In this document: piece by piece, positions 10,464-38,695 of the stretch
Numbering within the stretch: position 1 is the first letter of the stretch
How the letters are laid out: the number at the start of each line of letters is the position of its first letter
Assembly: GCF_003367375.1 (NCBI RefSeq)
Contig: NZ_CP031416.1
Coordinates: forward strand, 2,425,501 to 2,489,500
DNA length: 64,000 nt
Direction of reading: 5' to 3'
DNA from: Gallaecimonas mangrovi
GTDB taxonomy: Bacteria > Pseudomonadota > Gammaproteobacteria > Enterobacterales > Gallaecimonadaceae
Made by a program: the position numbers and the translations under genes
Notes under the pieces: model-generated
Seen by the model: the letters and a program-made list of their open reading frames with translations, nothing else
What the model was told of the DNA's origin: nothing
Databases searched by the model: none

Positions 10464-11470
10464 GTCTGGAAAAACTCCTCAATGGCGAGCGCCTTAGCGC
10501 CGAGCAGTCGCAAGCTTTTTTTGCCGACATGGCTGCCGGCAATATGGACCCGCTGCATCTAGCCGCAGCCCTTGCCGCCATGAAAGTACGCGGCGAAACC
10601 AGTGCTGAGCTGCAAGGTTTGGCCCAGGCACTGTTAGCGGCCGGTAAGCCCTTTTCGCGGCCGCAAGGCGACTTAGTCGACTGCTGCGGTACCGGCGGCG
10701 ACGGAGCCAACACCTTGAATATTTCCACCACCGCCGCTTTTGTTGCGGCCAGCGCTGGCATCAAGGTGGTAAAACACGGCAACAAGGCGGTGTCGTCACA
10801 ATCCGGTAGTACCGATGTGCTGACCGCGCTGGGCATCACCGTTATGGTTGACCCGGCTCTGGCCCGGCAAACTCTTGATGAGGTCAACTTGTGCTTTTTG
10901 GCCGCACCGCAATATCACCCCGGCATCAAACACGCCATGCCGGTGCGCCAGGCCTTAAAAACCCGCACGCTTTTTAACCTGGTTGGCCCGTTGGTGAACC
11001 CGGCGCGCCCTAACTTCCAATTGATGGGGGTTTACGACCCAGCACTTTTGGAAACCATTGCCCGCACCCTAATGGCGCTGGGTGTTGAGCGCGGCATGGT
11101 GGTACACGGCAGCGGTCTCGATGAAATTGCCCTGCATGGCCCCACCCAAGTGGTGGAAATTCGTGACGGCGCCCTTATCGAATACCAATTAACGCCTGGC
11201 GACCTTGGCCTTAGAGACGCCAGCATCGAGCAACTGGCCGGCGGTGATGGCTCTTATAATGCCCAGCAATTGGAAAAACTGCTGGCAACGGCAGAGCCCG
11301 GCCCGTACTTTGACGCAGTAGCCGCCAATGCGGGTGCGCTTTTTTACATGGCAAACCTAACCCGCACCCTTAAAGAAGGGGTCGCCATGGCCGGTGATGT
11401 AATGAAAAGCGGCAAGGCCCATGCCACGCTTAATCAGTTAAAGGAGATGCTCCGTGGCCACGGTGCTTGA
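10460..11470 (+). CDS. trpD: Anthranilate phosphoribosyltransferase
   Basis: 336 residues with a GTG start coupled to trpG. The PRPP-binding loop CGTGGDGANTLNISTT lies near residue 75 and KHGNKAVSSQSGSTDVL near residue 105. GLDEIALHGPT and FNLVGPLVNPA are further family motifs. It attaches phosphoribose to anthranilate. The end overlaps trpCF by 17 bases. Confidence 0.95.
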   Translation: MSLEKLLNGERLSAEQSQAFFADMAAGNMDPLHLAAALAAMKVRGETSAELQGLAQALLAAGKPFSRPQGDLVDCCGTGGDGANTLNISTTAAFVAASAGIKVVKHGNKAVSSQSGSTDVLTALGITVMVDPALARQTLDEVNLCFLAAPQYHPGIKHAMPVRQALKTRTLFNLVGPLVNPARPNFQLMGVYDPALLETIARTLMALGVERGMVVHGSGLDEIALHGPTQVVEIRDGALIEYQLTPGDLGLRDASIEQLAGGDGSYNAQQLEKLLATAEPGPYFDAVAANAGALFYMANLTRTLKEGVAMAGDVMKSGKAHATLNQLKEMLRGHGA

Positions 11471-12803
11471 AGAAATCGTAGAACGCAAAAAAGCCGACTT
11501 GCCAGCACTAAAGGCCCAGTTTCCACGTGCTAGCACCATGACCCTGCCACTGTCGAAAAGGTCCCTCGAGCACAGCTTGCGTTTCGGCAGCGGCTTTATT
11601 CTGGAATGTAAAAAAGCCAGCCCCTCCAAGGGCCTTATTCGCCCGGACTTTGACCCCAAGGCCTTGGCTGGCATTTACCAGCAGTACGCTTCCGGTATTT
11701 CGGTATTAACCGACGAGCCCTATTTTCAAGGCCGCCCCGAATATCTGGCCGCTGTGGCGCAAAGTGTCACGGTGCCGGTGCTGATGAAAGACTTTTTTAT
11801 CGACCCTTTCCAGATACGCTTGGCACGCTATTTAGGGGCCGACGCCATTCTGTTAATGCTGTCGGTACTGGATGACAACACCTATTTGGCACTGGCAGAA
11901 GAAGCGAAAAAGCTGAACCTTGATATTTTGACCGAGGCGGCAACCGCTGAAGAGCGCGACCGGGCGGTGCGCCTTGGCGCCAGAATAATCGGCATTAATA
12001 ACCGCAACTTACATGACATGAGCATCGACCTGGGCCGCACCGAACAGTTGGCCAAAGGCATTCCTGAAGACCGTGTGGTTATCAGCGAATCGGGCATTAA
12101 AAGCCATCAGGACGTCAAACGGCTTAAAGGCACCGCCCAAGGCTTTTTGGTGGGCTCTGAACTGATGAACAAGGCCGATGTGAACCTCGCCTGCCGCCAG
12201 CTGATTTTGGGTGAACACAAAGTCTGTGGCCTTACCAAGGCGGCGGATGCCAAAGCCGCTTATGACGCTGGCGCCTGCTACGGCGGCCTTATTTTCGCGG
12301 CCAAAAGCCCAAGAGCGGTTACCGAGGCAGAAGCCGCCACCATTATGGCCGGCGCCAAGCTTGCCTATGTTGGCGTTTTTGTTGATACGGATATTGAACA
12401 AGTGGCCGCCATTAGCAACCGGCTGGGGCTTTTTGCGGTGCAGCTTCACGGCAATGAAGATGCCAGCTATGTAGCAGCGCTTCGCGACAAAACCCAGGCC
12501 CAGATCTGGAAGGCCTGCACCGTTGATGCCGTGCCTGACATGGCGGTTGACCGCCTGGTGGTCGACTCAACACAGCAAGGCCAATTTGGCGGCACAGGCG
12601 CCGTTTTCGACTGGTCAAAATTGGGCAACCAATTCACTGCCCCAGTGATGCTGGCAGGCGGCATAGGCCCTGACAATGTCCAAAGTGCACTCGGTGTGCC
12701 CGGCATTATCGGCCTTGATCTTAATTCCAAACTGGAATCGGCCCCGGGTATTAAAGACCCCGCCCTTATCCAGCAGACATTTCAGTTAATGAGGCAAGCA
12801 TGA
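11454..12803 (+). CDS. trpCF: Bifunctional indole-3-glycerol phosphate synthase / phosphoribosylanthranilate isomerase
   Basis: 449 residues; GTG start with AAGGAG seven bases upstream, inside the end of trpD. Residues 1-255 are the TrpC barrel ([44 protein letters not shown]). Residues 256-449 are the TrpF barrel ([50 protein letters not shown]). The fused arrangement is the usual gammaproteobacterial one. The stop overlaps trpB as ATGA. Confidence 0.95.
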
Positions 12804-13978
12804 GCCATTTTTCCCCTTATTTTGGCGAGTTCGGCGGTACCTTTGTACCGGAGATCTTGGTGCCGGCACTGGATCAGCTGACAGCAGCCTTTGAAAATGC
12901 CCTTGAAGACGACAGCTTTAAAGCCGAACTTGGCGCCCTTTTAAAGCACTATGCAGGCCGCCCCACGCCGCTTTATGAAGCCACGCACCTAAGCCCCAAT
13001 CCTTTGGTACGCATTTTCCTTAAACGCGAAGATTTGCTCCATGGCGGTGCCCATAAAACCAACCAGGTGTTGGCCCAGGCACTGCTCACCAAGCGGATGG
13101 GCAAAAACGAAATCATTGCCGAAACCGGTGCTGGCCAGCACGGTGTTGCCACCGCCATGGTAGCGGCAATGATGGGCATGAAAGCGCGCATTTACATGGG
13201 CGCCAAGGACTGCGAACGCCAACAGCCCAACGTTTATCGCATGAAGTTGATGGGGGCCGAGGTTATTCCGGTACATGCCGGCTCTGGCACCTTAAAAGAT
13301 GCTGTTAATGAAGCGCTTCGCGATTGGGCCGCCAATTACGATACCGCCCATTACCTGCTGGGCACCGCTGCTGGCCCGCACCCCTTCCCGCATTTGGTAC
13401 GGGAGTTTCAACGTATCATTGGCGCCGAGGCCAAAGCTCAGATGATTGAAGCCATTGGCCGCCTGCCCGACGCTGCCATTGCCTGCGTTGGTGGCGGCTC
13501 TAACGCCATTGGCCTTTTTGCCGATTTTATCGACGAAAAAGACGTGGAATTGATTGGGGTAGAACCCGGCGGCGAAGGCGTGGAAACCGGCAAGCACGGC
13601 GCCCCTATCTACATGGCCAAAGAAGGCATTTTGCACGGCATGAAAAGCTACCTGATGCAAGATGAAGACGGCCAGGTAGAAGAGTCGCACTCGATTTCAG
13701 CGGGGCTGGATTACCCGGCAGTGGGCCCACAACATGCCTACCTTGCCAAAACCGGCCGTGCCCAATATGTGCCCATTAACGACGACGAAGCCATTGAGGG
13801 CTTTAAAGCCTTATGCCGCTCTGAAGGGATAATTCCGGCGATTGAATCTTCCCACGCCTTGGCTTATGCCCTAAAACGCGCCAAAGCTGCCAGCAAAGAA
13901 GAGGTGTTGCTGGTGAATCTTTCTGGCCGCGGCGATAAAGATCTCAACACCATTATGAAGTTGGAGGGCCTGCTATGA
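12800..13978 (+). CDS. trpB: Tryptophan synthase beta chain
   Basis: 392 residues. The PLP-binding lysine is in [15 protein letters not shown] near residue 85; [12 protein letters not shown] follows near residue 110, and the phosphate-binding loop [10 protein letters not shown] lies near residue 230. The [17 protein letters not shown] and NLSGRGDKD motifs are present. It condenses indole with serine. Both ends overlap adjacent trp genes by four bases. Confidence 0.97.
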
Positions 13979-14757
13979 GCCTGTATCAATCCTTGTTTGA
14001 GCGCCTAAGAGCCAAAAAAGAAGGGGCTTTCATTCCCTTTTTGACCCTGGGCGACCCGGATTTAGACACCAGCTTCGAACTGCTTTGCACCTTGGTTGAA
14101 AATGGCGCTGATGCGTTAGAACTCGGCGTGCCGTTTTCCGACCCGGTAGCGGATGGCCCAACAATTCAGGCTGCCACTTTGCGTGCGCTTGCCAGTGGCA
14201 CCACCCCGAAAAAGGCCCTGGCCTTGGTGCGGCGTTTAAAAGACAAATATCCCGAGATACCGGTGGGGTTATTAACTTACGCCAACCTGGTGTTTGCCGC
14301 CGGTATTGACCAGTTCTACCTTGATGCCAAAGCCGCAGGTGTTGATTCCGTGTTGGTGGCCGATGTGCCCATCAAGGAGTCTGCGCCTTTTGTAAAAGCC
14401 GCCAAGGCCGCCAAGGTTGCACCGGTGATGATAGCGCCGCCCAATGCCTCAGAAGCCACCCTTAAAGCCGTTGCTCAGCTGAGTGAAGGCTACGTTTATT
14501 TGGTCTCGCGCGCCGGTGTTACCGGCACCGAAACCGCGGCTGGCAAACCGCTTGGCCATATTATTGACACCCTTAAACGCTATCAGTCAGCCCCTGTTGT
14601 ATTAGGTTTTGGCATTGCCGAGCCGGAGCAAGTGAAAGCGGCGCTTGCCGCCGGCTGCGCCGGTGCCATTAGTGGTAGCGCCGCGGTTAAGGCCGCAGAG
14701 CAAGGCCCCGAGCAGTTGGCAGCCTTTAGTGCCAGCATGAAAGCGGCTAGCCGCTAA
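13975..14757 (+). CDS. trpA: Tryptophan synthase alpha chain
   Basis: 260 residues. Signatures are [11 protein letters not shown] near residue 20 (substrate pocket), [18 protein letters not shown] (catalytic Glu and Asp region) near residue 48, and [14 protein letters not shown] near residue 170. It cleaves indole-3-glycerol phosphate to indole, which is channelled to TrpB. Last gene of the operon; a strong terminator follows within ten bases. Confidence 0.96.
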
Positions 14758-14764
14758 TACAAAT

Positions 14765-14790
14765 AAAAAAGGCCTTCGGGCCTTTTTTAA
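14765..14790 (+). terminator. Terminator of the trp operon
   Basis: AAAAAAGGCC / TTCG / GGCCTTTTTT: a stem with a stable UUCG tetraloop and long T tract directly after trpA. Confidence 0.85.
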
Positions 14791-14800
14791 TAGAGGCAAC

Positions 14801-15022
14801 ATGTTCGACAAAGCCACCCTGATTAAGCTTGCACAGACCCAGATGCCGTTTGGTAAGTATCAAGGCCGGCCGCTGATGAAGTTACCTGAAGAGTATCTTT
14901 TATGGTTTCAGCACAAGGGCTTTCCGGAAGGAAATCTAGGGGAGCTGATGGCGCTGGCGTTAGCGCTAAAGGTGGAAGGGTTGGATACTATTCTTGACCC
15001 TCTGGCTAAACCAAAACCATAA
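14801..15022 (+). CDS. DUF3820 family protein
   Basis: 73 residues. The family pattern is clear: MPFGKYQGRPLMKLPEEYLLWF (residues about 15-36) and FPEGNLGELMALALALKVEGL. GAGG lies just upstream of the ATG. DUF3820 proteins are small and widespread in gammaproteobacteria, sometimes labelled as quorum-sensing-regulated virulence factors; the function is not established. It lies between two terminators and is probably expressed on its own or by readthrough from trp. Confidence 0.85.
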   Translation: MFDKATLIKLAQTQMPFGKYQGRPLMKLPEEYLLWFQHKGFPEGNLGELMALALALKVEGLDTILDPLAKPKP

Positions 15023-15050
15023 AAAAGGGCGCCCTAGGGCGCCCTTTTTC
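15021..15050. terminator. Terminator between DUF3820 gene and cold-shock gene, bidirectional
   Basis: AAAAAAGGGCGCCC / TA / GGGCGCCCTTTTT, symmetric, serving both convergent genes. Confidence 0.85.
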
Positions 15051-15065
15051 TATCATTGTTGCGAC

Positions 15066-15278
15066 TTAGGCAACAACAACAACGTTAGCAGCTTGAGGAC
15101 CTTTTTGGCCTTGCTCAACGTTGAAAGTCACTTTTTGGCCTTCTTTCAGCACTTTGAAGCCAGTGCCTTGGATAGCGCGGAAGTGTACGAATACATCAGC
15201 ACCACCGTTTTCGGGAGTGATGAAGCCGTAGCCTTTTTCTTCGTTGAACCACTTAACGGTGCCGGTAGAGTTAGACAT
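15066..15278 (-). CDS. Cold-shock domain protein (CspA family)
   Basis: 70 residues from the ATG at 15278, where AGGAGA lies upstream; the longer frame to 15308 lacks support. A single cold-shock domain with RNP1 KGYGFITPE (residues about 16-24) and RNP2 DVFVHF (near residue 30), [12 protein letters not shown] at the start. These proteins bind single-stranded RNA or DNA and melt RNA structure. The 278-base region upstream to 15556 has no other gene and may contain a long leader, as is common for csp genes. Which csp paralogue, and whether cold-induced, cannot be told. Confidence 0.93.
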
Positions 15279-15556
15279 GTAATGTCTCCTGAAATTTACT
15301 GTGCGCAATGCGCGTTAAAACAAATTACTTATGATTACAAACAGTTAATGAAGCTTCAGGACAACATTACCGGGTAGAGCGAATGTGTAGAGAAGTATTC
15401 AAATCTTGACTGTTACATTAAGTAAGACCGCACTTTACGGCCGGTGCGAATATTAGCACAAGGGCCTCGCAGGTACAGGACTATTTTGCAATTATCTGCA
15501 CTTGTGCAAATTGCTGTTTATCAATGCCATTTCCCGCCAAGAAAACGTTTTTAGGC

Positions 15557-16648
15557 TCATCTTAGCAGCAGAGCTGCCGAATATTGCCGCCGCCCCAAGC
15601 GCGCCATGCGCGCAAAGCTATCAAGGGGCACCGGCATGGCAATGTTGTCGGTTACGCTTTGCACATCTTCAAGGTCCGGGTCGTGCAGATAAACAAAGCG
15701 CTGGTCCATCGCCACCACCAATACCCAGTGCGGCGCTTTTTCGTTGTGCATCTGGTAGGTGGAAATTAATACCAGAGCCAAGCCACCAGCCTCTAAGTGC
15801 CGGTGCAGGGCGTCTAACTCCATACGCTGATAAATCCGCTGAATGCCAGCCTTTTTGATGCGCTTGGAAAAATCTTCATGAACCACGCTAACAATGTGCT
15901 TTTTATCGCTACTGCGAACCCCTTCGATAAAAGGCACTTCTTTGTCAGAAACGCACAAGCTCACCTCAAGGCCATGGTCTGCGGCCACCAGGGCCAAGCC
16001 CTCCCCCGAGCAGCCACCGTGGCCGGAGGTCATAAAAATGGTGGTGGATGCCCGCCACAGGTTCAGCTCGTCACTGATACTGGGTTTGTGCTTTTTCTTC
16101 AGCGCTGACATCGCCATCAAAAGACAGGCGGGGCCGCAGGTAAACCGGGTTTGCTGTGGGTAAAACGGCACCTTTAAGCTGCCCTTGGGCAACTTGCCTT
16201 TAATACGTTTTTCCATGCGCAGGCCGTCACTACCGTCTTCGTAGTAACCCAGCAGTGGCGTGATGGTTTTAAAGCCGAATTTTTCATATAGGCCAATGGC
16301 AGCCTGGTTGTCTTCCTGGACTTCCAGACGAATGGCAATGGAGCCTTCGCTAATGGCGGCTTGTTCGATTTTTTCCATCAACAACTTGGCGACGCCACGG
16401 CCACGGGCCGCCGGATCAACCGCCAACGAATAAAGCCGTGCTAACGCCGTGCCTTTTTTTAACAGCAATACCGCCGCGCCCAATAATTTGGTTTTCTCTT
16501 CGGCCACCCATACCTGACCATGCGCCTCTTTTAATAGGTGGCGCCAGCGCCGACGGTCAAGGCGGTCATGGGTAAACGCTTTATTTTCCAGCGCGAAGAG
16601 GTCATCCAGGTCGGTAATACTCGCCAAGCGTACTTTCATTACACTCAC
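15557..16648 (-). CDS. Fusion of GNAT acetyltransferase and C39-like cysteine peptidase
   Basis: 363 residues with two domains. Residues 4-150 are a RimI-type GNAT domain: LYSLAVDPAARGRGVAKLLM carries the acetyl-CoA loop (near residue 72) and NQAAIGLYEKFGF the C-terminal signature. Residues 155-363 are a papain-like C39 peptidase: PQQTRFTCGPACLLMAM with Cys171, HWVLVVA with His307 and LHDPD with Asp323 give a complete catalytic set. It diverges from an RLAN/ATP-grasp ligase at 16790. I recall this fusion and an ATP-grasp ligase occurring side by side in other genomes. A joint role in making and trimming or acetylating a peptide or amide bond is inferred; substrates are unknown. Confidence 0.85.
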   Translation of the reverse strand: MSVMKVRLASITDLDDLFALENKAFTHDRLDRRRWRHLLKEAHGQVWVAEEKTKLLGAAVLLLKKGTALARLYSLAVDPAARGRGVAKLLMEKIEQAAISEGSIAIRLEVQEDNQAAIGLYEKFGFKTITPLLGYYEDGSDGLRMEKRIKGKLPKGSLKVPFYPQQTRFTCGPACLLMAMSALKKKHKPSISDELNLWRASTTIFMTSGHGGCSGEGLALVAADHGLEVSLCVSDKEVPFIEGVRSSDKKHIVSVVHEDFSKRIKKAGIQRIYQRMELDALHRHLEAGGLALVLISTYQMHNEKAPHWVLVVAMDQRFVYLHDPDLEDVQSVTDNIAMPVPLDSFARMARLGRRQYSAALLLR

Positions 16649-16699
16649 CCTTCATACAAGTGGCTGCACAATAGCCATAATTAACGCCAACTTACAGCG

Positions 16700-16731
16700 A
16701 AGGATATTTGTCTTTAGAACAAGAAATCCTT
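16700..16731. promoter_or_regulatory. Inverted repeat in the divergent promoter region
   Basis: AAGGAT (16700-16705) and ATCCTT (16726-16731) frame an inner TTGT/ACAA pair. A second small hairpin (GGGCGCA/TGCGCC) lies at about 16751-16769. Position between two divergent genes suggests an operator or shared control site; no regulator recognised. Confidence 0.3.
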
Positions 16732-16789
16732 GTTTGCGAGCCACTATGAATGGGCGCATTCTTTGCGCCATCCAACACAGGAGTGACCC

Positions 16790-18208
16790 ATGACCCGGCT
16801 TTATATCCTCCTCAAAGAGCAAAAACAGTGGGGAGGGCTCTACCCTTCTGATGATTTACTTACCGCCCGTGAGTACTTAAAACTGCCGCCCGTTAAAGGC
16901 ACCGATAAAGTGCAGGTATTGAACCTTACCGGCAGCTATCGCTATTTGGGCGAAGGCTACTATTGCTCTTTGCTGGCAGAAGCCCGCGGTCACAGAGTGC
17001 TGCCGTCGGTGGCAACCTTAAACGACTTGGCAAGCCGCGGCCTCTACGGCCCGGAAATCAAAACGCTGAAAACGCCAACCGACAACGACGTAACCTTTCG
17101 GGTGTTTTTTGGCCGCACCTTAGACCCGCACTTTGCAGAACTGGGCTTGCAGCTGTTTGACCGTTTCCCGGCGCCAATATTGGAAGCCACCTTAAAAGAC
17201 GGTGCTATCAGCAAGCTAAAACCCAAGGGGCTTTCTAACCTCAGCGATGAAGAAGAAACCCTGTTTGCCGAAGCGTTAGATGCGTTTTCTCATAAAATTT
17301 GGCGCGTTAAAAAGCCCAAACGCAAATACCGTTTTGACTTGGCGATGTTGGTAGACCCAGAAGAAAAGCTGCCGCCGTCAGATACCGGCGCCCTTAAGCG
17401 TTTTATTCGCGCGGGCCGTACCTTGGGCGTGCAGGTTGACCTTATTACCCATAAACAAGCGGCGCGCCTTGCCGAATACGACGGGCTTTTTATCCGCGAA
17501 ACCACCAGTATTCACGGCCCCAGTTTTCAAATGGCGCGCCGCGCCGAAAACTTAGGCCTGGCGGTAATAGACACCCCTGAAGCCATATTGCGCTGCACCA
17601 ACAAAATTTACCTGGCCGAGCGCTTGGAACAGGCCAAAGTGGCCATTCCCAAAACCCGTATCGTGCAGCGCGGTGACGAGGAAGCGCTGGCCGCGGCGGC
17701 GGCCGACTTAGGTTACCCACTGGTGATGAAGATCCCCGACGGTTCCTTTTCCCGCGGGGTGGTGAAAGCCCAGAGCATGGAAGATGTACACAAACATGCC
17801 GTCGGCTTTTTCAAGCAGTCGGCGCTGATCCTGCTGCAAGAGTATTGCTACACCGAATACGACTGGCGGGTTGGGGTTTTGAACAAAGAGCCGATTTTTG
17901 TCAGCAAATACTTTATGAGCCGTGGTCATTGGCAGATTTATAACCACTCAGGCAAAAAAACCCAGTCGGGTGGCTTTGAAACCCTGCCGGTAGCGGCGGC
18001 GCCGAAAAAAGTGATCGACACCGCCGTAAAGGCAGCCAACCTAATGGGCGATAGCCTCTTTGGTGTTGATTTAAAAGTGGTTAACGGCAAACCAGTGGTG
18101 ATAGAGGTTAACGACAACCCTAACGTCGATTCCGGGGTTGAAGACAAAATCTTGGGTGACCAGCTGTACTTAACCATCATGCAGGAATTGGTCAAACGCA
18201 TGAGTTGA
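16790..18208 (+). CDS. RimK-family ATP-grasp ligase with RLAN N-terminal domain
   Basis: 472 residues; AGGAG precedes the ATG. Residues 1-185 match the RLAN (RimK-like ATP-grasp N-terminal) type: LNLTGSYRYLGEGYYCSLLAEARGH is characteristic (read as two parts, LNLTGSYRYLGEGYY and CSLLAEARGH). Residues about 190-470 are an ATP-grasp ligase: LVMKIPDGSFSRGV (ATP lysine and glycine loop), ILLQEYCYTEYDWRVGVL, and VVIEVNDNPNVDSG with the metal-binding Glu and Asn. RimK-type enzymes add amino acids, often glutamate, to peptide or protein carboxylates; this one's substrate is unknown. It diverges from the acetyltransferase-peptidase fusion, its likely partner, and is followed by yciB after 33 bases. 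Confidence 0.85.
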   Translation: MTRLYILLKEQKQWGGLYPSDDLLTAREYLKLPPVKGTDKVQVLNLTGSYRYLGEGYYCSLLAEARGHRVLPSVATLNDLASRGLYGPEIKTLKTPTDNDVTFRVFFGRTLDPHFAELGLQLFDRFPAPILEATLKDGAISKLKPKGLSNLSDEEETLFAEALDAFSHKIWRVKKPKRKYRFDLAMLVDPEEKLPPSDTGALKRFIRAGRTLGVQVDLITHKQAARLAEYDGLFIRETTSIHGPSFQMARRAENLGLAVIDTPEAILRCTNKIYLAERLEQAKVAIPKTRIVQRGDEEALAAAAADLGYPLVMKIPDGSFSRGVVKAQSMEDVHKHAVGFFKQSALILLQEYCYTEYDWRVGVLNKEPIFVSKYFMSRGHWQIYNHSGKKTQSGGFETLPVAAAPKKVIDTAVKAANLMGDSLFGVDLKVVNGKPVVIEVNDNPNVDSGVEDKILGDQLYLTIMQELVKRMS

Positions 18209-18241
18209 TTTAGACTGGGCGGTAGTTCGTTGGAGGAATAC

Positions 18242-18775
18242 ATGGCTTTTCTCGACTATTTGCCGCTTATTATTTTTTTTGTTGTCTACAAACTCAGCAA
18301 TATCTACACCGCCACTTGGGCACTGATTGGTGCCAGCGCGCTGATGCTGGTGGTGGTCAAACTGGTTAAGAAATCCATATCCAAACAGCAATGGTGGCTT
18401 TTTGCCGCGGTGGTGGTGTTTGGCGGTATGACCCTGGCCTTCCATTCCGATCTCTTTATCAAGTGGAAGGTCACCGTGGTTTATGCAGCCTTTGCTGTTG
18501 CGCTTATCGGCGCCCAGTTTGGCGGCAAGAGCCTGATTAAATCGATGCTGGGTGAACAACTTAAATTACCAGAGCCGGTATGGCGCAAACTGACCTTTGG
18601 CTGGGGCGCCTTCTTTGCACTGATGTCCGTTATCAACTTGGTTGTGGCTTATCAGTTTTCCCAAAACACCTGGGTTAACTTCAAACTGTTTGGCACCACG
18701 GCCGCCACGCTAGTTGCTTGCCTCATTAGCGGCATGCTGATTTACCGGCACCTTCCCGACCAAGAAAAATCCTAA
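18242..18775 (+). CDS. yciB: Inner-membrane intracellular septation protein YciB
   Basis: 177 residues from the ATG at 18242, where GGAGG is correctly spaced; an upstream frame start at 18230 is rejected. About five hydrophobic membrane segments. The N-terminus MAFLDYLPLIIFFVVYK and the central WKVTVVYAAFAVALIG and WGAFFALMSVINLVVAY segments are typical. YciB (IspZ) affects cell envelope integrity and septation with other membrane proteins in E. coli. It belongs to the group of yci genes linked to trp in enterobacteria; yciC is not next to it here. Confidence 0.92.
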   Translation: MAFLDYLPLIIFFVVYKLSNIYTATWALIGASALMLVVVKLVKKSISKQQWWLFAAVVVFGGMTLAFHSDLFIKWKVTVVYAAFAVALIGAQFGGKSLIKSMLGEQLKLPEPVWRKLTFGWGAFFALMSVINLVVAYQFSQNTWVNFKLFGTTAATLVACLISGMLIYRHLPDQEKS

Positions 18776-18803
18776 AAAAAGCCGCCTTAAGGCGGCTTTT
18801 TTA
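18774..18803. terminator. Terminator between yciB and the chemoreceptor gene, bidirectional
   Basis: AAAAAAAGCCGCC / TTAA / GGCGGCTTTTTTA; the mcp stop codon lies in the T tract. Confidence 0.85.
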
Positions 18804-20810
18804 TAGCTTGAAGCGTCCCACCACCTGGCTTAACTGCTGCGCAGTGTGCTCAACGGCCTTGCCTTCATCGGCGCTGGTTTGGGCATGCACAGCGCTTTGC
18901 TTGGCCTTGGCATCAAGCTGGCTGAGGTTTTGGTTAATATCACTGACCACTTCCGATTGCTGCTCGGTTGCAGCGGCAATTTGGTCGGCTTTATTACTCA
19001 CCGTCGCCAAACGCATTTGAATTTGTGCAAAGGCCTGAGTGGCTTCTTCAACGGCCGCCAAGGTCCCTTCCACCTCAGAAAGACCACTTTCAATAGCATC
19101 CACCGTGCCTTTTACGCCGCTTTGCAGGCGCGTGATCATTTGCTGAATATTTTGTGTCGATTCTTGGGTGCGACCAGCCAGGGTGCGCACTTCGTCAGCG
19201 ACCACCGCAAAGCCACGGCCGGAGTCTCCGGCGCGGGCCGCTTCAATGGCGGCGTTGAGTGCCAGCAAATTGGTTTGCTCGGCAATGGAACCTATCACAT
19301 CCAGCACCGTGACAATATTTTGCGCTTCTTGTTCTAACAAGGACACGGCGTTAGAAGCATCGGTCATGGTGGAAGACAATGCCTGGGTTTGCTGCACCGA
19401 CTTACCGGCAAGGCTGGCACCATGCTCGGCATCTTCACTGGCGGCCCTGGCCTCTTTGGCAGAATCGGCAGCACTTTCTGCCACTTCTTGAATGGAAGCG
19501 GTGATCTGCTCGGTAGCAGTGACCAGTTGCTCCAGAGAGCGTACTTGTTCATTTACCAACGACAAGGTTTCGGTACCGGTGCCTTTGACTTGTTGGGCAT
19601 GGCTTTTCATTTCGGTGGCGACCGCCGCAACCGACTTCATTTGTTGCTGCAACTGGCCCATCAGCTCATTGAAATGCATTGCCAACCGGCCAAGCTCATC
19701 ATCGTTTTTTACATCGAGGCGCGCGGTTAAGTCGCCATCTCCCCGAGCAATGTCTCTAATGCGCTGCTGCAAATGGCTGGTAGTTCTCGTTACATAGGTT
19801 GGGATGTAGTAACCAATAATGACAAAAATAATCAGGATGATACCGGCTGCCCCCCAAAGCATCACCAGGTTGCGATTGGCCTTGTCATGAGCCACTTGGG
19901 TGCTGGCTTTAACCCGATTTTCTATCAGTTCGGTACTCTTGTTTAACAGCTCGCGAATTTGCTCAAAGTCGTCGGTTGAATCAATTTCGCTGATGCTTAT
20001 CTTGCCTGCTAGCTGCGTGTCTGCACCTTTAACCCACTGGGTAACCTTTTCATGAAAGCGTTTTACCAAGGCATCAACATCCGGCAATTTGGCGGCGGCG
20101 GCAGCAGTTTGAGAACGCGTTAACGCCTGCTGGATATTTTCGTCGCGCATCGCCAGCGCCGCCTTGGTCTCTTTGCCTTCAATGGTGCGAACTACCGCTT
20201 CTTGCTGGGCCACCAGCGCCTGATAAAAATCACGGTCGGCCTGGATGATACCGTCAATAGCGGGTATCAACCGAATCAACTCAGCACTGCTTTGGCCACT
20301 ATCGGCTGCGGCTTTTAAGGCATCGATATGATGCTCAATAAGCTCGGTGCTTTCGTCCATAAACTGGCGAATATGGTTGAAATCATCATGGGATTCGAGC
20401 TTGTCTAATGACTGTTGAGTACCCAGACTGGCCAAAGCACGTTGCTGCCATTGCCCGGCGTCGCTGGTGAATGAATCCACAAGCTCTTTAACCTTGGGCA
20501 GTTCCACCAGGGTGGACGCCTTTTGAGAACGTCGAACCGCTTGCTCGATGTTGTCTTTAAGGGTTTGCACCTGCTCGGCAATATCTTTGCCTTCCATTTT
20601 GCGCGCCACCGCTTGTTGGCGGGCCACCAAGGACTGATAAAAGTCACGGTCGGCTTGCAATACAGCATCAATAGCTGGAATAAGGTTACTGACTGTTTCA
20701 TCGGCACTGCGCTGCAGCGCCTTGGTCCCGAAATGGGCCAAGGCCGCCAAAATCAGCGTTAACACAGTTAAAACCAGTAAGGCCAAACGAATTTTATTAC
20801 TGAGTGACAT
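18801..20810 (-). CDS. Methyl-accepting chemotaxis protein with duplicated helical sensor
   Basis: 669 residues. A membrane segment at about 9-27, a periplasmic region to about 313, and a second membrane segment at about 316-336. A HAMP domain ([20 protein letters not shown]) follows, then a long coiled signalling domain. Its hairpin tip reads [20 protein letters not shown], with [18 protein letters not shown] after it, typical of MCPs. The sensor is an internal tandem duplication: [20 protein letters not shown] (residue 43) recurs as [20 protein letters not shown] (residue 181). Both copies end in a DDFxxIRxxxxxSTELIE helix. The ligand is unknown; no other chemotaxis gene is nearby. Confidence 0.93.
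19896..20684 (-). repeat. Tandem duplication of the chemoreceptor sensor module
   Basis: Two units of about 138-residue period: residues 43-170 (20301-20684) and 181-305 (19896-20270). They align along their whole length at protein level, including the starting LIPAID helix and the ending STELIE helix, but have diverged at DNA level. Confidence 0.75.
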
Positions 20811-21030
20811 AAGGTTCTCTTTGCACTAGCAGGGTTCAGTAACAACATAAGCAGTGCATTGAGTGTTGTAGACGAATGTGGCCATTTCAAATTTAGACAG
20901 TAAAAAAACGCCGCCACCTCGCTGATAAAAAAGCTTTTTTGGTTATCAAAAATGCAATTTCCGGCGGCATCCCCCTGATAAGGGCGCAACAGGGCATTTT
21001 CATCAAACCGTGATTGAGAAGTCATAAAAC

Positions 21031-21050
21031 TGTCACCGCTTACAGTGACA
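21031..21050. promoter_or_regulatory. Palindromic candidate operator TGTCAC-N8-GTGACA
   Basis: Six-base perfect arms (21031-21036 and 21045-21050) in the divergent mcp/yciI region. The arm overlaps the putative -35 of the minus-strand promoter. No regulator identified. Confidence 0.35.
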
Positions 21051-21109
21051 ATGCCTGCACTGACATTGCGATACAGTGTCTGTGCATCTCTGAGACATCC
21101 TGATATTTT

Positions 21110-21143
21110 GGCCCCAGGTATTATTTACCCGGGGCTTTTTTCT
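21110..21143 (+). terminator. Terminator-like hairpin upstream of yciI
   Basis: GCCCCAGGTA and TACCCGGGGC form a stem with one mismatch, followed by T6. It lies only about 25 bases before the yciI start, so it either ends an unrecognised short transcript or acts as a leader attenuator. Confidence 0.5.
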
Positions 21144-21167
21144 TTCCGGGACAAAAGGAGATAAATC

Positions 21168-21467
21168 GTGCTCTACAGTATTATCAGCGAAGACGTTGCC
21201 AACTCTCTGCCGCTGCGGATGCAAGCCCGCCCGGCACACTTAGCACGCTTGGAAGAATTAAAAGCCAAAGGTTTATTGGTAATAGCCGGGCCAAGCCCGG
21301 CTATTGATAGCGATAACCCGGGTGAAGCAGGCTTTACCGGTTCATTGGTGATAGCCGAGTTTGCAAGCCTTGACGATGCCAAGGCCTGGGCCGATGCCGA
21401 CCCTTATGTTGCTGCTGGCGTTTATGCCAAGGTCACCGTGAAGCCTTTTAAGAAGGTGCTGCCATAA
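21168..21467 (+). CDS. yciI: YciI family protein
   Basis: 99 residues with a GTG start; AAGGAG is well placed upstream. The ferredoxin-like YCII fold is indicated by [31 protein letters not shown] near residue 21-41 and [17 protein letters not shown] near residue 70, with conserved His and Asp residues. In E. coli yciI is in the same trp-linked group. Biochemical role is not firmly established. Confidence 0.9.
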
Positions 21468-21492
21468 CCGGTGGCGGTTAGGGTTTTAAAAG

Positions 21493-21523
21493 AAAAAACG
21501 CAGCCCGTTGGCTGCGTTTTTTT
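21493..21523. terminator. Terminator between yciI and the dehydrogenase gene, bidirectional
   Basis: AAAAAACGCAGCC / CGTT / GGCTGCGTTTTTTT. Confidence 0.85.
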
Positions 21524-21527
21524 ATGG

Positions 21528-22379
21528 CTACTGCAGCCTGACCAACAGGCTGGATGTATCCCAGCGACTGCCGCCAAGACGCTGCACGTCAGCGTAGAAC
21601 TGGTCAACCAAGGCGGTTAACGGCAGGGTGCTGCCGTTGCGGCGCGCTTCGGCAAGGGCAATTGATAGGTCTTTTCGCATCCAGTCGACAGCAAAACCAA
21701 AGTCATATTGGCCTTTATCCATGGTAAGGGCACGGTTTTCCATCTGCCAGCTTTGAGCGGCACCTTTGGAGATAACCTCCACCACATCAGCAACGTTAAG
21801 CCCGGCTTTTTGAGCAAAGTTAATGGCCTCAGACAGCCCTTGCACAATGCCGGCAATACAAATTTGGTTGACCATTTTACAAAGCTGGCCACTGCCCGCC
21901 TCGCCCAAGCGTTTTATCTGCTTGGCGTAGCTTTTAAGCACCGCTTCGGCGGCTTGATAGGTAACTTCATCACCACCGACCATAACGGTTAACTGGCCAT
22001 TTTCAGCCCCCGCCTGGCCGCCTGAAACCGGCGCGTCTAAAAAGCCAATGCCTTTATCGCTCAGCGCTTGATACAGCTCGCGCGCCACTTCAGCACTGGC
22101 GGTAGTGTGGTCAACCAATATCGCGCCAGCCTTCATGCCAGCCATGGCAGCAAAAGCAACAGCACGAACATCATCGTCATTACCCACACACATCATCACC
22201 AAGTCAGCGTCTTTTGCAGCTTCGCTAGGCGTGTCAGCAAATTTACCCGCAAACTCTTGGGCCCACTTTTCAGCTTTGGCTGTGGTGCGGTTATAAACAC
22301 AGACCTCAAACCCGGCTTTTTTAAGGTGCCCTGCCATCGGGTAACCCATCACCCCTAGCCCTAAAAACGCAACTTTCAT
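21528..22379 (-). CDS. NAD(P)-dependent beta-hydroxyacid dehydrogenase (3-hydroxyisobutyrate dehydrogenase family)
   Basis: 283 residues. The N-terminal dinucleotide fold begins AFLGLGVMGYPMAGHLKKAG. The substrate signature DAPVSGGQAGAENG is near residue 120 and the catalytic lysine lies in GSGQLCKMVNQI near residue 168. The family includes glyoxylate/succinic semialdehyde reductases, tartronate semialdehyde reductases and 3-hydroxyisobutyrate dehydrogenase. The clustered mmsB at 52482 is the better candidate for valine degradation, so this copy probably reduces another semialdehyde. Stands alone, facing yciI. Confidence 0.85.
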   Translation of the reverse strand: MKVAFLGLGVMGYPMAGHLKKAGFEVCVYNRTTAKAEKWAQEFAGKFADTPSEAAKDADLVMMCVGNDDDVRAVAFAAMAGMKAGAILVDHTTASAEVARELYQALSDKGIGFLDAPVSGGQAGAENGQLTVMVGGDEVTYQAAEAVLKSYAKQIKRLGEAGSGQLCKMVNQICIAGIVQGLSEAINFAQKAGLNVADVVEVISKGAAQSWQMENRALTMDKGQYDFGFAVDWMRKDLSIALAEARRNGSTLPLTALVDQFYADVQRLGGSRWDTSSLLVRLQ

Positions 22380-22583
22380 AACAGCTCCTTTGCTGCATAA
22401 GCTTCAGCATCAATGCTATTAGCTTGCCATATTTACGCCGGTAAATCTGGCCTTCACAAACCTCAATGGCTGGGTTTTTTAGCGCTTAAAATAGCAGCCT
22501 TATAAAAAGTGCGAATGATGCCAAAGTTGGCTCTTCCTCGCTTCTGATAAGATGGCTTTGAATTCGTATTGGCATTGTTAGAC

Positions 22584-22937
22584 ATGATGAAGCTTGTAAG
22601 GGCATTGGCGATTATTTTTGCCTGCCTCTATTTGGGCAAAGGTCTGTGCGCCCTGACCCACCTGCCTATTCCGGGCAGTATCATTGGTATGTTGATTCTT
22701 TTTACGCTGCTCAGCTCAAAGCGCTTGCCTGCCCAATGGGTAGTCCCCGCCGCAACGCCGCTTATTCGCCACATGACCTTGTTGTTTATTCCCGCCGGTG
22801 TTGGATTGATGAACTATCTAGACGTATTAGAGCACCACGCTTTAGTGCTGGTGGGATCTTGTATCGTATCGACCTGTTTCATCATTTTGGCGGTGGGCAC
22901 CCTTTATCAAAAACGGGGACCCAAAGGCCATGATTGA
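22584..22937 (+). CDS. CidA/LrgA family membrane protein
   Basis: 117 residues from the ATG at 22584; a TTG 15 bases upstream and an ATG at 22587 are alternatives, and no strong ribosome site is visible. Four hydrophobic segments with the family motifs LPIPGSIIGMLILF (residues about 29-42) and LFIPAGVGLMNYLD. CidA/LrgA proteins act with an LrgB/CidB partner and have been described as holin-like or as pyruvate/overflow-metabolite transporters. It overlaps the lrgB-type gene by eight bases. Confidence 0.85.
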   Translation: MMKLVRALAIIFACLYLGKGLCALTHLPIPGSIIGMLILFTLLSSKRLPAQWVVPAATPLIRHMTLLFIPAGVGLMNYLDVLEHHALVLVGSCIVSTCFIILAVGTLYQKRGPKGHD

Positions 22938-23622
22938 AGCGCTTGCCTTACTGGCCTTCACCTTGGTGCTGTATTGGTTGCTAAGAGAGCTACAAATACG
23001 CGCCAAGAGCCCTCTGCTTAACCCGGTGCTGCTGGCCATTATTATTTTGGTACCGCTACTGATTTATTTAAAAATTCCCTATCAGCAGTACATGAAAGGT
23101 GGCCAGGTAATTAACTTCTTTTTAGAGCCGGCAGTGGTTGCCTTGGCTTATCCGCTTTATCAGCAATTAGAGCTTATTCGCGCCCAGTGGAAGGCGCTGC
23201 TGTTAACCTGTCTTGCGGCAGTTTTACTGGCCATGGGCTCGGTGTTACTGCTGGGCTGGGGGTTAGGTGGTAACCGGCAAGTGTTACTGTCGCTGGCGCC
23301 TAAAGCGGTAACAACCCCCATTGCCATGGGGGTAAGTGACCGCATCGGCGGTATTCCTTCTCTGACTGCGGTTCTGGTCTTGGTGGCAGGCTTTACCGGC
23401 GCCTTGGTGGGGCCGACACTGCTTAATTTAGCCAGAGTGAAAAGCCCACAGGCCAGAGGCCTTGCCATGGGAGCGGCTTCCCATGCGGTGGGCACCGCCA
23501 GAATGGTTGAAGAATCTGCCGAAGCGGCCGCCTTTTCCGGCTTAGCATTGAGTCTTTGTGGCATTATTACCGCCATCGTGGCGCCTTTAGTGGTGCCTTG
23601 GATAACGGAGTTAATGGTATGA
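22930..23622 (+). CDS. LrgB/CidB family membrane protein
   Basis: 230 residues with about six membrane segments. Family motifs are PKAVTTPIAMGVSDRIGGIP near residue 123 and GLAMGAASHAVGTARMVEE near residue 178. It partners with the preceding CidA/LrgA-type gene and overlaps the following ldhA as ATGA, so the three genes form one unit. That arrangement suggests handling of pyruvate or lactate, which would fit the proposed transport role of Lrg/Cid proteins, but this is inference. Confidence 0.9.
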   Translation: MIEALALLAFTLVLYWLLRELQIRAKSPLLNPVLLAIIILVPLLIYLKIPYQQYMKGGQVINFFLEPAVVALAYPLYQQLELIRAQWKALLLTCLAAVLLAMGSVLLLGWGLGGNRQVLLSLAPKAVTTPIAMGVSDRIGGIPSLTAVLVLVAGFTGALVGPTLLNLARVKSPQARGLAMGAASHAVGTARMVEESAEAAAFSGLALSLCGIITAIVAPLVVPWITELMV

Positions 23623-38463: not shown

Positions 38464-38477
38464 GGCGGCGCATCGGC

Positions 38478-38561
38478 GGTGGGGTTCCCGAGTGGCCAAA
38501 GGGATCAGACTGTAAATCTGACGGCTCAGCCTTCGAAGGTTCGAATCCTTCCCCACCACCA
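38478..38561 (+). tRNA. tRNA-Tyr (anticodon GTA), copy 1
   Basis: 84 bases including encoded CCA. Acceptor arms GGTGGGG and CCCCACC pair; anticodon GTA at 38512-38514 in GACTGTAAATC; a long variable arm as expected for a class II tRNA; T loop GGTTCGAATCC. Confidence 0.95.
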
Positions 38562-38611
38562 TCCTATTACAACGAAAGTGGCAACAACGCGGCTTTCTAT
38601 ATGCGAACTCC

Positions 38612-38695
38612 GGTGGGGTTCCCGAGTGGCCAAAGGGATCAGACTGTAAATCTGACGGCTCAGCCTTCGAAGGTTCGAATCCTTCCCCACCACCA
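38612..38695 (+). tRNA. tRNA-Tyr (anticodon GTA), copy 2
   Basis: Identical in sequence to the first copy, 50 bases downstream; anticodon at 38646-38648, encoded CCA. Same transcript is likely, ended by the hairpin that follows. Confidence 0.95.

Follow-up and report, generated by a model that had tools for sequence, protein, structure and literature searches.

A linked gene pair of Gallaecimonas mangrovi, an acetyltransferase-peptidase fusion and an RLAN ATP-grasp ligase, with a possible role in small N-acetylated peptide metabolism

What could be made by two divergent genes, one encoding a GNAT acetyltransferase fused to a papain-like C39 peptidase and the other an RLAN-containing ATP-grasp ligase? 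The question is raised by positions 15,557 to 18,208 of a stretch of the Gallaecimonas mangrovi chromosome (contig NZ_CP031416.1, positions 2,425,501 to 2,489,500), the whole 64,000 nucleotides of which are called the window here. Genome surveys reveal that the usual constant unit is the RLAN ligase together with one GNAT subfamily of the N-terminal-acetyltransferase fold, and that the C39 peptidase is optional. We suggest, with an estimated probability of about 0.45, that the two genes form a synthesis and turnover module for a small N-acetylated peptide, similar in logic to that of the osmolyte N-acetylglutaminylglutamine amide (NAGGN). The features on which the analysis is based are the following.

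15557-16648, minus strand: GNAT N-acetyltransferase fused to a DUF3335/papain-like C39-type peptidase, 363 residues when read from GTG 16648, complete open reading frame
16193-16642, minus strand: GNAT domain, about residues 3-152 (Pfam); nearest structures Ard1 and RimI
15563-16171, minus strand: DUF3335 peptidase domain, residues 160-362 of 363 (Pfam)
16136-16138, minus strand: codon of Cys171, predicted catalytic nucleophile
Six codons before Cys171, minus strand: Gln165, likely oxyanion residue
15728-15730, minus strand: codon of His307, predicted catalytic
15680-15682, minus strand: codon of Asp323, predicted catalytic
16649-16789, no strand: divergent intergenic region between the two listed starts, 141 bases
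16790-18208, plus strand: RLAN and RimK-type ATP-grasp ligase, 472 residues, complete open reading frame (ORF) (Pfam)
16865-17275, plus strand: RLAN domain, residues 26-162 (Pfam), fold not placed
17321-18205, plus strand: pre-ATP-grasp and ATP-grasp domains, residues 178-472; nearest structures RimK, LysX and ArgX

The initial annotation had read the first gene as a RimI-type acetyltransferase fused to a papain-like C39 peptidase with Cys171, His307 and Asp323 in place, and the facing gene as a RimK-like ATP-grasp ligase with an RLAN N-terminal domain. Profile searches and alignments bear out both descriptions. The fusion protein matches GNAT (PF00583, E 6.9e-22) and DUF3335, 'Peptidase_C39 like' (PF11814, E 7.2e-77), and with 257.9 bits against a cut-off of 25 bits it is a member of DUF3335. 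It does not belong to the bacteriocin C39 leader peptidases, since PF03412 gave no match in this protein at E 0.001. The ligase exceeds the gathering scores of both RLAN (PF14401, E 7.7e-38, 129.9 against 25 bits) and RimK ATP-grasp (PF08443, E 7.4e-9, 35.9 against 21 bits). Counted from the GTG at 16648, Gln165, Cys171, His307 and Asp323 are common to all 53 aligned DUF3335 domains, the window's included, and in a second conserved segment (HGGC in the window) His210 and Cys213 are each kept in 51 of 53. Two alignments of the ligase, one of 17 and one of 51 sequences and both with the window's own, show the ATP-grasp residues K272, K314, R360, D427, E439 and N441 to be invariant. An ATG at 16639, three codons downstream of the GTG and preceded by AAGG nine bases ahead, looks like the better-placed start of the fusion gene, which would shift its residue numbers by -3. 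A promoter scan of 16500-16900, which covers the intergenic region, gave no sigma-70-like match.

Co-occurrence and linkage of the two genes

Two samples were surveyed, 369 genomes of the window's class and 398 of its phylum, with six positive genomes in common. Five weak or partial DUF3335 matches (G062, G074, G107, G174, G349) were dropped from the class survey before counting; in the phylum survey only the best match was used, and three extra DUF3335 matches in G596 and G669 were set aside. In the class DUF3335 was found in 62 genomes, or 57 from 41 families after the drops, and RLAN in 81. RLAN occurs in 56 of these 57 DUF3335 genomes (59 of 62 if the weak matches are kept). The phylum survey gave 58 genomes with DUF3335, 72 with RLAN and 57 with both, so that 57 of 58 DUF3335 genomes carry RLAN. 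Fisher tests, which ignore shared ancestry, returned p values of 3e-45 and 1e-53, and RLAN was found in none of 14 control genomes. The pairing of DUF3335 with RLAN is not due to chance.

Genomes with both genes nearly always have them side by side. In the class 53 of 56 carry the pair on one contig, in all cases with at most 2.7 kb between the domain matches, and the remaining three have the genes on different contigs. In the phylum the pair lies within 5 kb in 55 of 57 genomes, the exceptions being G428, where the genes are 2.1 Mb apart, and G592, where they are on different contigs. The proposal of the initial annotation that the two genes belong together, which was to fall if they co-occurred no more than by chance, is therefore upheld. 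Most pairs are on the same strand with DUF3335 first (42 of 53 in the class, 28 of 55 in the phylum); the divergent order of the window was seen 8 and 19 times, RLAN first 2 and 5 times, and a convergent order 1 and 3 times. Such varied orientation and order suggest that the pair has re-formed repeatedly and is not one frozen operon. The window genome has a single RLAN gene and a single DUF3335 gene, and in the four other sampled genomes of the genus the pair is present and divergent throughout.

The locus is patchy across families, which could also be explained by a role in resistance or detoxification, with the GNAT and peptidase inactivating an imported peptide and the ligase conjugating it. 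Several GNAT antibiotic-acetyltransferase models match weakly, but all of these matches are far under the cut-offs, and plasmids seldom carry relatives (31 and 12 of 72,556 records, each below 60% identity). We consider this role improbable.

A constant acetyltransferase and an optional peptidase

Of the 81 RLAN genomes of the class, 53 have a GNAT-C39 gene next to the ligase and 8 only a GNAT; 16 are of a type called clade B, discussed below, and in 4 the stretch read shows no partner. In this split 79 loci come from one classification and two contig-end loci (L100, L134) were read separately. Two of the four partnerless loci, L120 and L123, end near a contig edge beside the ligase, and two of the eight GNAT-only labels are doubtful, G208 having a broken RLAN frame and G349 a long-branch ligase and a weak GNAT match. 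As a follow-up to the phylum survey 18 RLAN ligases without an adjacent DUF3335 were fetched. These represent 13 of the 15 genomes lacking DUF3335, second copies of three genomes, and G428 and G592; the other two of the 15, G328 and G422, had already been read as GNAT-only. A GNAT-only gene lies near 17 of the 18, including all 13 newly fetched genomes without DUF3335. A third set, the best 80 named relatives out of 587 candidate stretches confirmed by scan, has 42 GNAT-C39 loci, 33 with GNAT only and 5 with neither, four of the latter no more than 840 bases from where the stored DNA ends. It includes many records from Pseudomonas, Marinobacter, the Halomonas group and Dyella.

The GNAT next to the ligase is one specific subfamily. 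With a model that contains the window's own GNAT, the partner GNAT scored 146-215 bits in seven genomes, compared to 45-74 bits for the next GNAT. A quickly built tree of 103 ligase rows requires nine changes of the GNAT-only label, five of them forced by well-supported branches, and it shows G766, with GNAT only, as a close sister of G034, with GNAT-C39. Such a pattern agrees with the C39 domain having been lost repeatedly while the GNAT was retained; the ligase trees are quick, unrooted and drawn at the midpoint (with the contig-edge rows L120 and L123 dropped from the second), and gains are also possible. The initial annotation had presented ligase, peptidase and acetyltransferase as one combination. 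Its ligase and acetyltransferase hold as a core, whereas the peptidase as a fixed part does not: because GNAT-only loci stand beside the ligase, trimming would be optional.

Some individual loci are of interest. Three genomes of one family (G469, G473, G547) have two RLAN ligases each, one by a GNAT-C39 gene and one by a GNAT alone. In G428 (L284, L285) the GNAT-C39 gene, together with DUF2817 and DUF155, is the one far from the RLAN ligase, which has a GNAT-only neighbour of its own. A Pseudomonas aeruginosa plasmid carries an RLAN ligase with no GNAT neighbour in the 11 kb read (L267, NZ_CP133752.1, 33474-44931); this stretch also holds glutamate/aspartate transporter genes and pagP. To judge by gene order, its RLAN gene may be PA1345. 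One paper lists a CpxR motif before the P. aeruginosa ATP-binding gene PA1345, on the basis of the motif only and not of DNA affinity purification sequencing (PMC12802237).

Further peptidases are found near part of the loci. M14, DUF2817, DUF155, C39b, GCS2 and FGase genes were counted with profiles built from locus clusters, which miss distant members, and the neighbour-peptidase counts are uncorrected for phylogeny. In the class classification a metallopeptidase-type gene lies within 5 kb of 10 of the 53 linked GNAT-C39 loci (six from a PF00246 zinc-carboxypeptidase cluster, four DUF2817), and near none of 7 GNAT-only and none of 15 clade B loci. Among the 80 best named relatives DUF2817 stands beside 14 of the 42 loci with GNAT-C39 and none of the 33 with GNAT only. 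H76, E79, H228 and E301 are invariant in 12 aligned DUF2817 proteins, in segments which we take to resemble the zinc and catalytic motifs of M14, and the profile weakly matches the Rapid Encystment Phenotype Protein 34 KDa chain (4oko, E 0.0011). This suggests that DUF2817 is a metallopeptidase. The class loci with DUF2817 beside the pair are L084, L098, L114 and L132.

Two other neighbours recur. A DUF155 (RMND1/Sif2-Sif3) gene is found near RLAN ligases of both clades at 8 of 87 loci (L099, L130, L132, L141, L145, L149, L076, L137). At some class loci, e.g. L088, L090, L106, L151 and L152, the pair is flanked by what we take to be ArgE-like M20 or ArgA-like genes, an arrangement that may reflect shared chromosomal order rather than function. 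The identity of the M20 genes was checked by Pfam for one representative, and they were not used as functional evidence. Single-linkage clustering had placed this M20 cluster with the GNAT-C39 genes, an assignment removed by profile search.

In the quick ligase tree 15 RLAN ligases form one clade, clade B, with a Shimodaira-Hasegawa-like approximate likelihood ratio support of 100. At 13 of the 15 loci, e.g. L087, L139 and L146, the ligase is accompanied by a C39-type peptidase, a GCS2 gene and a gene of the N-formylglutamate amidohydrolase family (FGase); L101 has the peptidase only and L124 GCS2 only. The separate peptidase of clade B is homologous to DUF3335 (hhalign 95.7%, E 8.8e-9), in an alignment that takes in the TCGP segment as well as the His and Asp regions. 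The two clades thus draw on one papain-type domain and its relatives wherever they have a peptidase, and it is the capping partner that differs.

Possible product and competing explanations

A mechanism should account for a ligase that is usually accompanied by an acetyltransferase and often by a peptidase. RimK, LysX and ArgX join amino acids to carboxylates. The RLAN ATP-grasp enzyme could similarly, at the expense of ATP, attach an amino acid to a carboxylate, either of an amino acid or of a short peptide, and the GNAT half would provide a cap by acetylating the alpha-amine of the substrate or product. The DUF3335 half may cleave the product or act on it as a transpeptidase, and C39 and M14 enzymes would turn it over. 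This corresponds to the making, capping and trimming of a small peptide or amino-acid adduct put forward in the initial annotation; the three enzyme activities, the small-molecule substrate and the order of the steps are what we infer from domain content and gene context.

A small N-acetylated peptide is favoured because clade B pairs the same ligase with small-molecule amino-acid enzyme families, and because no precursor peptide recurs nearby. Also counted in its favour were the co-occurrence and linkage, the retention of the GNAT without C39, the RimK/LysX/ArgX-like fold of the ligase, the homology between the clade B peptidase and DUF3335, the M14-type genes near 10 of 53 loci and the NAGGN precedent. 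The search for a dedicated precursor covered 3,517 ORFs of 20-90 codons within 2.5 kb at 68 loci, and elsewhere in the genomes no search was made. All of the six widest clusters, which were checked, overlap larger ORFs; the widest reached six loci, and the larger ORF that it overlaps is a neighbour on the opposite strand. This result bears on graspetide-like maturation of a ribosomal peptide encoded nearby, which could be envisaged since peptide natural-product systems can contain ATP-grasp enzymes as well as C39-type peptidases. With no recurrent precursor-like short ORF near the pair, and no ABC transporter noticed when the ORFs of 11000-23000 were read by eye, such maturation is disfavoured and seems highly improbable.

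For the ligase model, with a mean predicted local distance difference test score (pLDDT) of 83.8, structural matches span residues 182-472 and include RimK (Z 26.8, root-mean-square deviation (rmsd) 2.7, 273 residues aligned), LysX (Z 26.6, rmsd 2.3, 267 aligned) and ArgX (Z 25.7, rmsd 2.6, 268 aligned), where Z scores differing by 1 or less are treated as tied. The matches listed for the fusion model (pLDDT 90.7) cover residues 2-154, the GNAT part, with Ard1 (Z 23.6, rmsd 1.4 over 147 residues) and RimI (Z 22.9, rmsd 3.1 over 148) above NatC, NatA and Naa60. A YY segment late in the GNAT domain aligns with Ard1 and RimI, and 39 fused GNATs share an invariant Y136. Judged from the model, the GNAT half belongs to the N-terminal acetyltransferase fold group, which concerns the fold and not the activity. 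For the RLAN half the VIA rows span residues 178-472 only, and the Foldseek rows listed for the full-length model are ATP-grasp enzymes. The order of strands and helices and a recurring segment had suggested that RLAN is a duplicated pre-ATP-grasp domain, an idea that hhalign comparison of sub-alignments did not support.

These folds provide the strongest argument for the main rival of a small-peptide product, which is modification of protein ends. In this scenario the RimK-like ligase would extend the C-terminus of a housekeeping protein or peptide by amino acids, an N-terminus would be acetylated by the RimI-like GNAT, and C39 and M14 peptidases would reverse the tag, in a cycle like that of RimK/RimB or of tubulin glutamylation. 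The nearest solved structures, RimK and LysX/ArgX on one side and Ard1, RimI, NatA, NatC and Naa60 on the other, act on protein ends, the shared YY segment and invariant Y136 agree with this, and some loci adjoin M14 carboxypeptidases. That RimB reverses RimK is reported in the accessible part of a paper on these enzymes (PMC12239564). However, clade B uses the small-molecule families GCS2 and FGase, and both proteins of the pair score under curated cut-offs: the fusion GNAT reaches 70.3 against 86.4 bits for the RimI equivalog TIGR01575, and the ligase reaches 82.3 against 143.4 bits (TIGR00768) and 43 against 331 bits (NF007764) for canonical RimK, the S6 ligase. The window genome moreover already contains three further genes that match the RimK ATP-grasp domain, two of them strongly. 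On balance we regard protein-end modification as unlikely.

For the DUF3335 half, the structure listing obtained from the full-length fusion model was filled by GNAT matches. Comparison of the DUF3335 profile with PDB sequences gave two weak matches, to a C39 protease (E 0.0089) and to a protein containing the N-terminal domain of Butirosin biosynthesis protein H (BtrH, E 0.016). The second would suit an acyl- or peptidyl-transferase resembling phytochelatin synthase or BtrH, by which the fusion builds the product instead of trimming it, and a papain-like fold supports both chemistries. Yet both matches are too weak to decide, and in the classification paper DUF3335 stands near Guanylate_cyc_2 (PF09778), a family whose role is left open there (PMC10318531). 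A transferase in this position appears quite unlikely.

Several observations weigh against the proposed N-acetylated peptide module. Protein N-terminal acetyltransferases are the enzymes that the GNAT resembles most, and this suits protein or peptide ends at least as well as free amino acids; our probability is no higher than stated above because characterized homologs of both enzymes act on such ends. DUF3335 occurs without RLAN in one genome of each survey (G211, G429) and in the control Methanosarcina acetivorans, and no GNAT was seen in the DNA read around the ligase of G592, the P. aeruginosa plasmid ligase and L202. The names GCS2 and FGase were given solely by homology, with one Pfam-checked representative each. 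No osmolyte genes tied to the pair were seen, and no systematic search for them was made.

A broader proposal, which is possible but held more tentatively than the small N-acetylated peptide itself, is that the RLAN ligase and its dedicated GNAT, similar to N-terminal acetyltransferases, form the core of an unrecognized pathway to N-acetyl-capped peptides. The papain- and M14-type peptidases would then be swappable turnover modules, and clade B would make a related product, with GCS2 and a deacylase replacing the cap.

The surroundings of the pair in the window, named from translations, consist of what we take to be tryptophan-pathway ORFs and a cold-shock-like ORF upstream, and presumably a membrane-protein ORF and a chemotaxis-receptor-like ORF downstream. 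Further away, at 38477-38694, are two tandem tRNA-Tyr genes separated by 50 bases.

Comparison with known systems

The amidoligase survey of Iyer et al. from 2009 is reported to have predicted that combinations of ATP-grasp ligase, GNAT and peptidase make small peptides, and to have dealt with the same domain families. The present analysis probably differs in that linkage is counted on whole genomes, the GNAT emerges as the usual constant partner, C39 is optional, and M14-type peptidases are present at some loci. Searches of the open-licence literature listed no assayed member and no paper on RLAN or DUF3335 function. The accessible part of a more recent paper, citing the 2009 survey, describes DUF3335 as 'often fused' to GNAT domains (PMC10318531). 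The GNAT-DUF3335 fusion is already known in print, and within that literature the pair is an instance of a catalogued kind for which no assay was found.

What is added here is the modular anatomy of the locus, with a constant GNAT and ligase, an optional C39 domain, M14-type additions and the clade B parts. RLAN ligases are widespread, occurring in 81 of 369 class and 72 of 398 phylum genomes. If the module makes an abundant N-acetyl peptide, a widespread metabolite would be added and the roles of RLAN, DUF3335 and DUF2817 would be explained together. The constant pair of GNAT and ligase is what should be assayed first.

With the RimI/Ard1 N-terminal acetyltransferases the GNAT half shares its fold and the YY segment; it differs in scoring under the RimI cut-off and in its partners, a fused DUF3335 or an RLAN ligase. 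The LysX/ArgX-LysW amino-group carrier system offers, together with RimK, the closest ATP-grasp folds, but the short ORFs clustered around the pair include no recurrent small carrier like LysW. In RimK/RimB and RloABC a RimK-type ligase is likewise paired with a peptidase, whereas their peptidase is a retropepsin and the accessible part of the source describes no GNAT gene (PMC12239564).

The closest parallels are in small-molecule metabolism. The logic of the N-acetylaspartate/N-acetylaspartylglutamate pathway matches that of the proposed module, with different ligase and peptidase families. In the NAGGN system, according to the accessible part of its description, Ngg is responsible both for acetylating a glutamine and for forming the peptide bond (PMC8070244). 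Two activities are thus united in one protein there, unlike in the window, where moreover the ligase and peptidase families are different. No protein of the window genome exceeds the NAGGN synthetase cut-off (TIGR03103, 569 bits), the score obtained within the pair being 33.8 bits; AsnO was not searched. Because of this result and the different protein families, we propose that the pair works like the NAGGN system, not that it is one. The likeness lies in the joint action of acetylation and peptide-bond formation to make an N-acetylated dipeptide, and in the peptidase gene that the NAGGN operon contains (PMC8070244).

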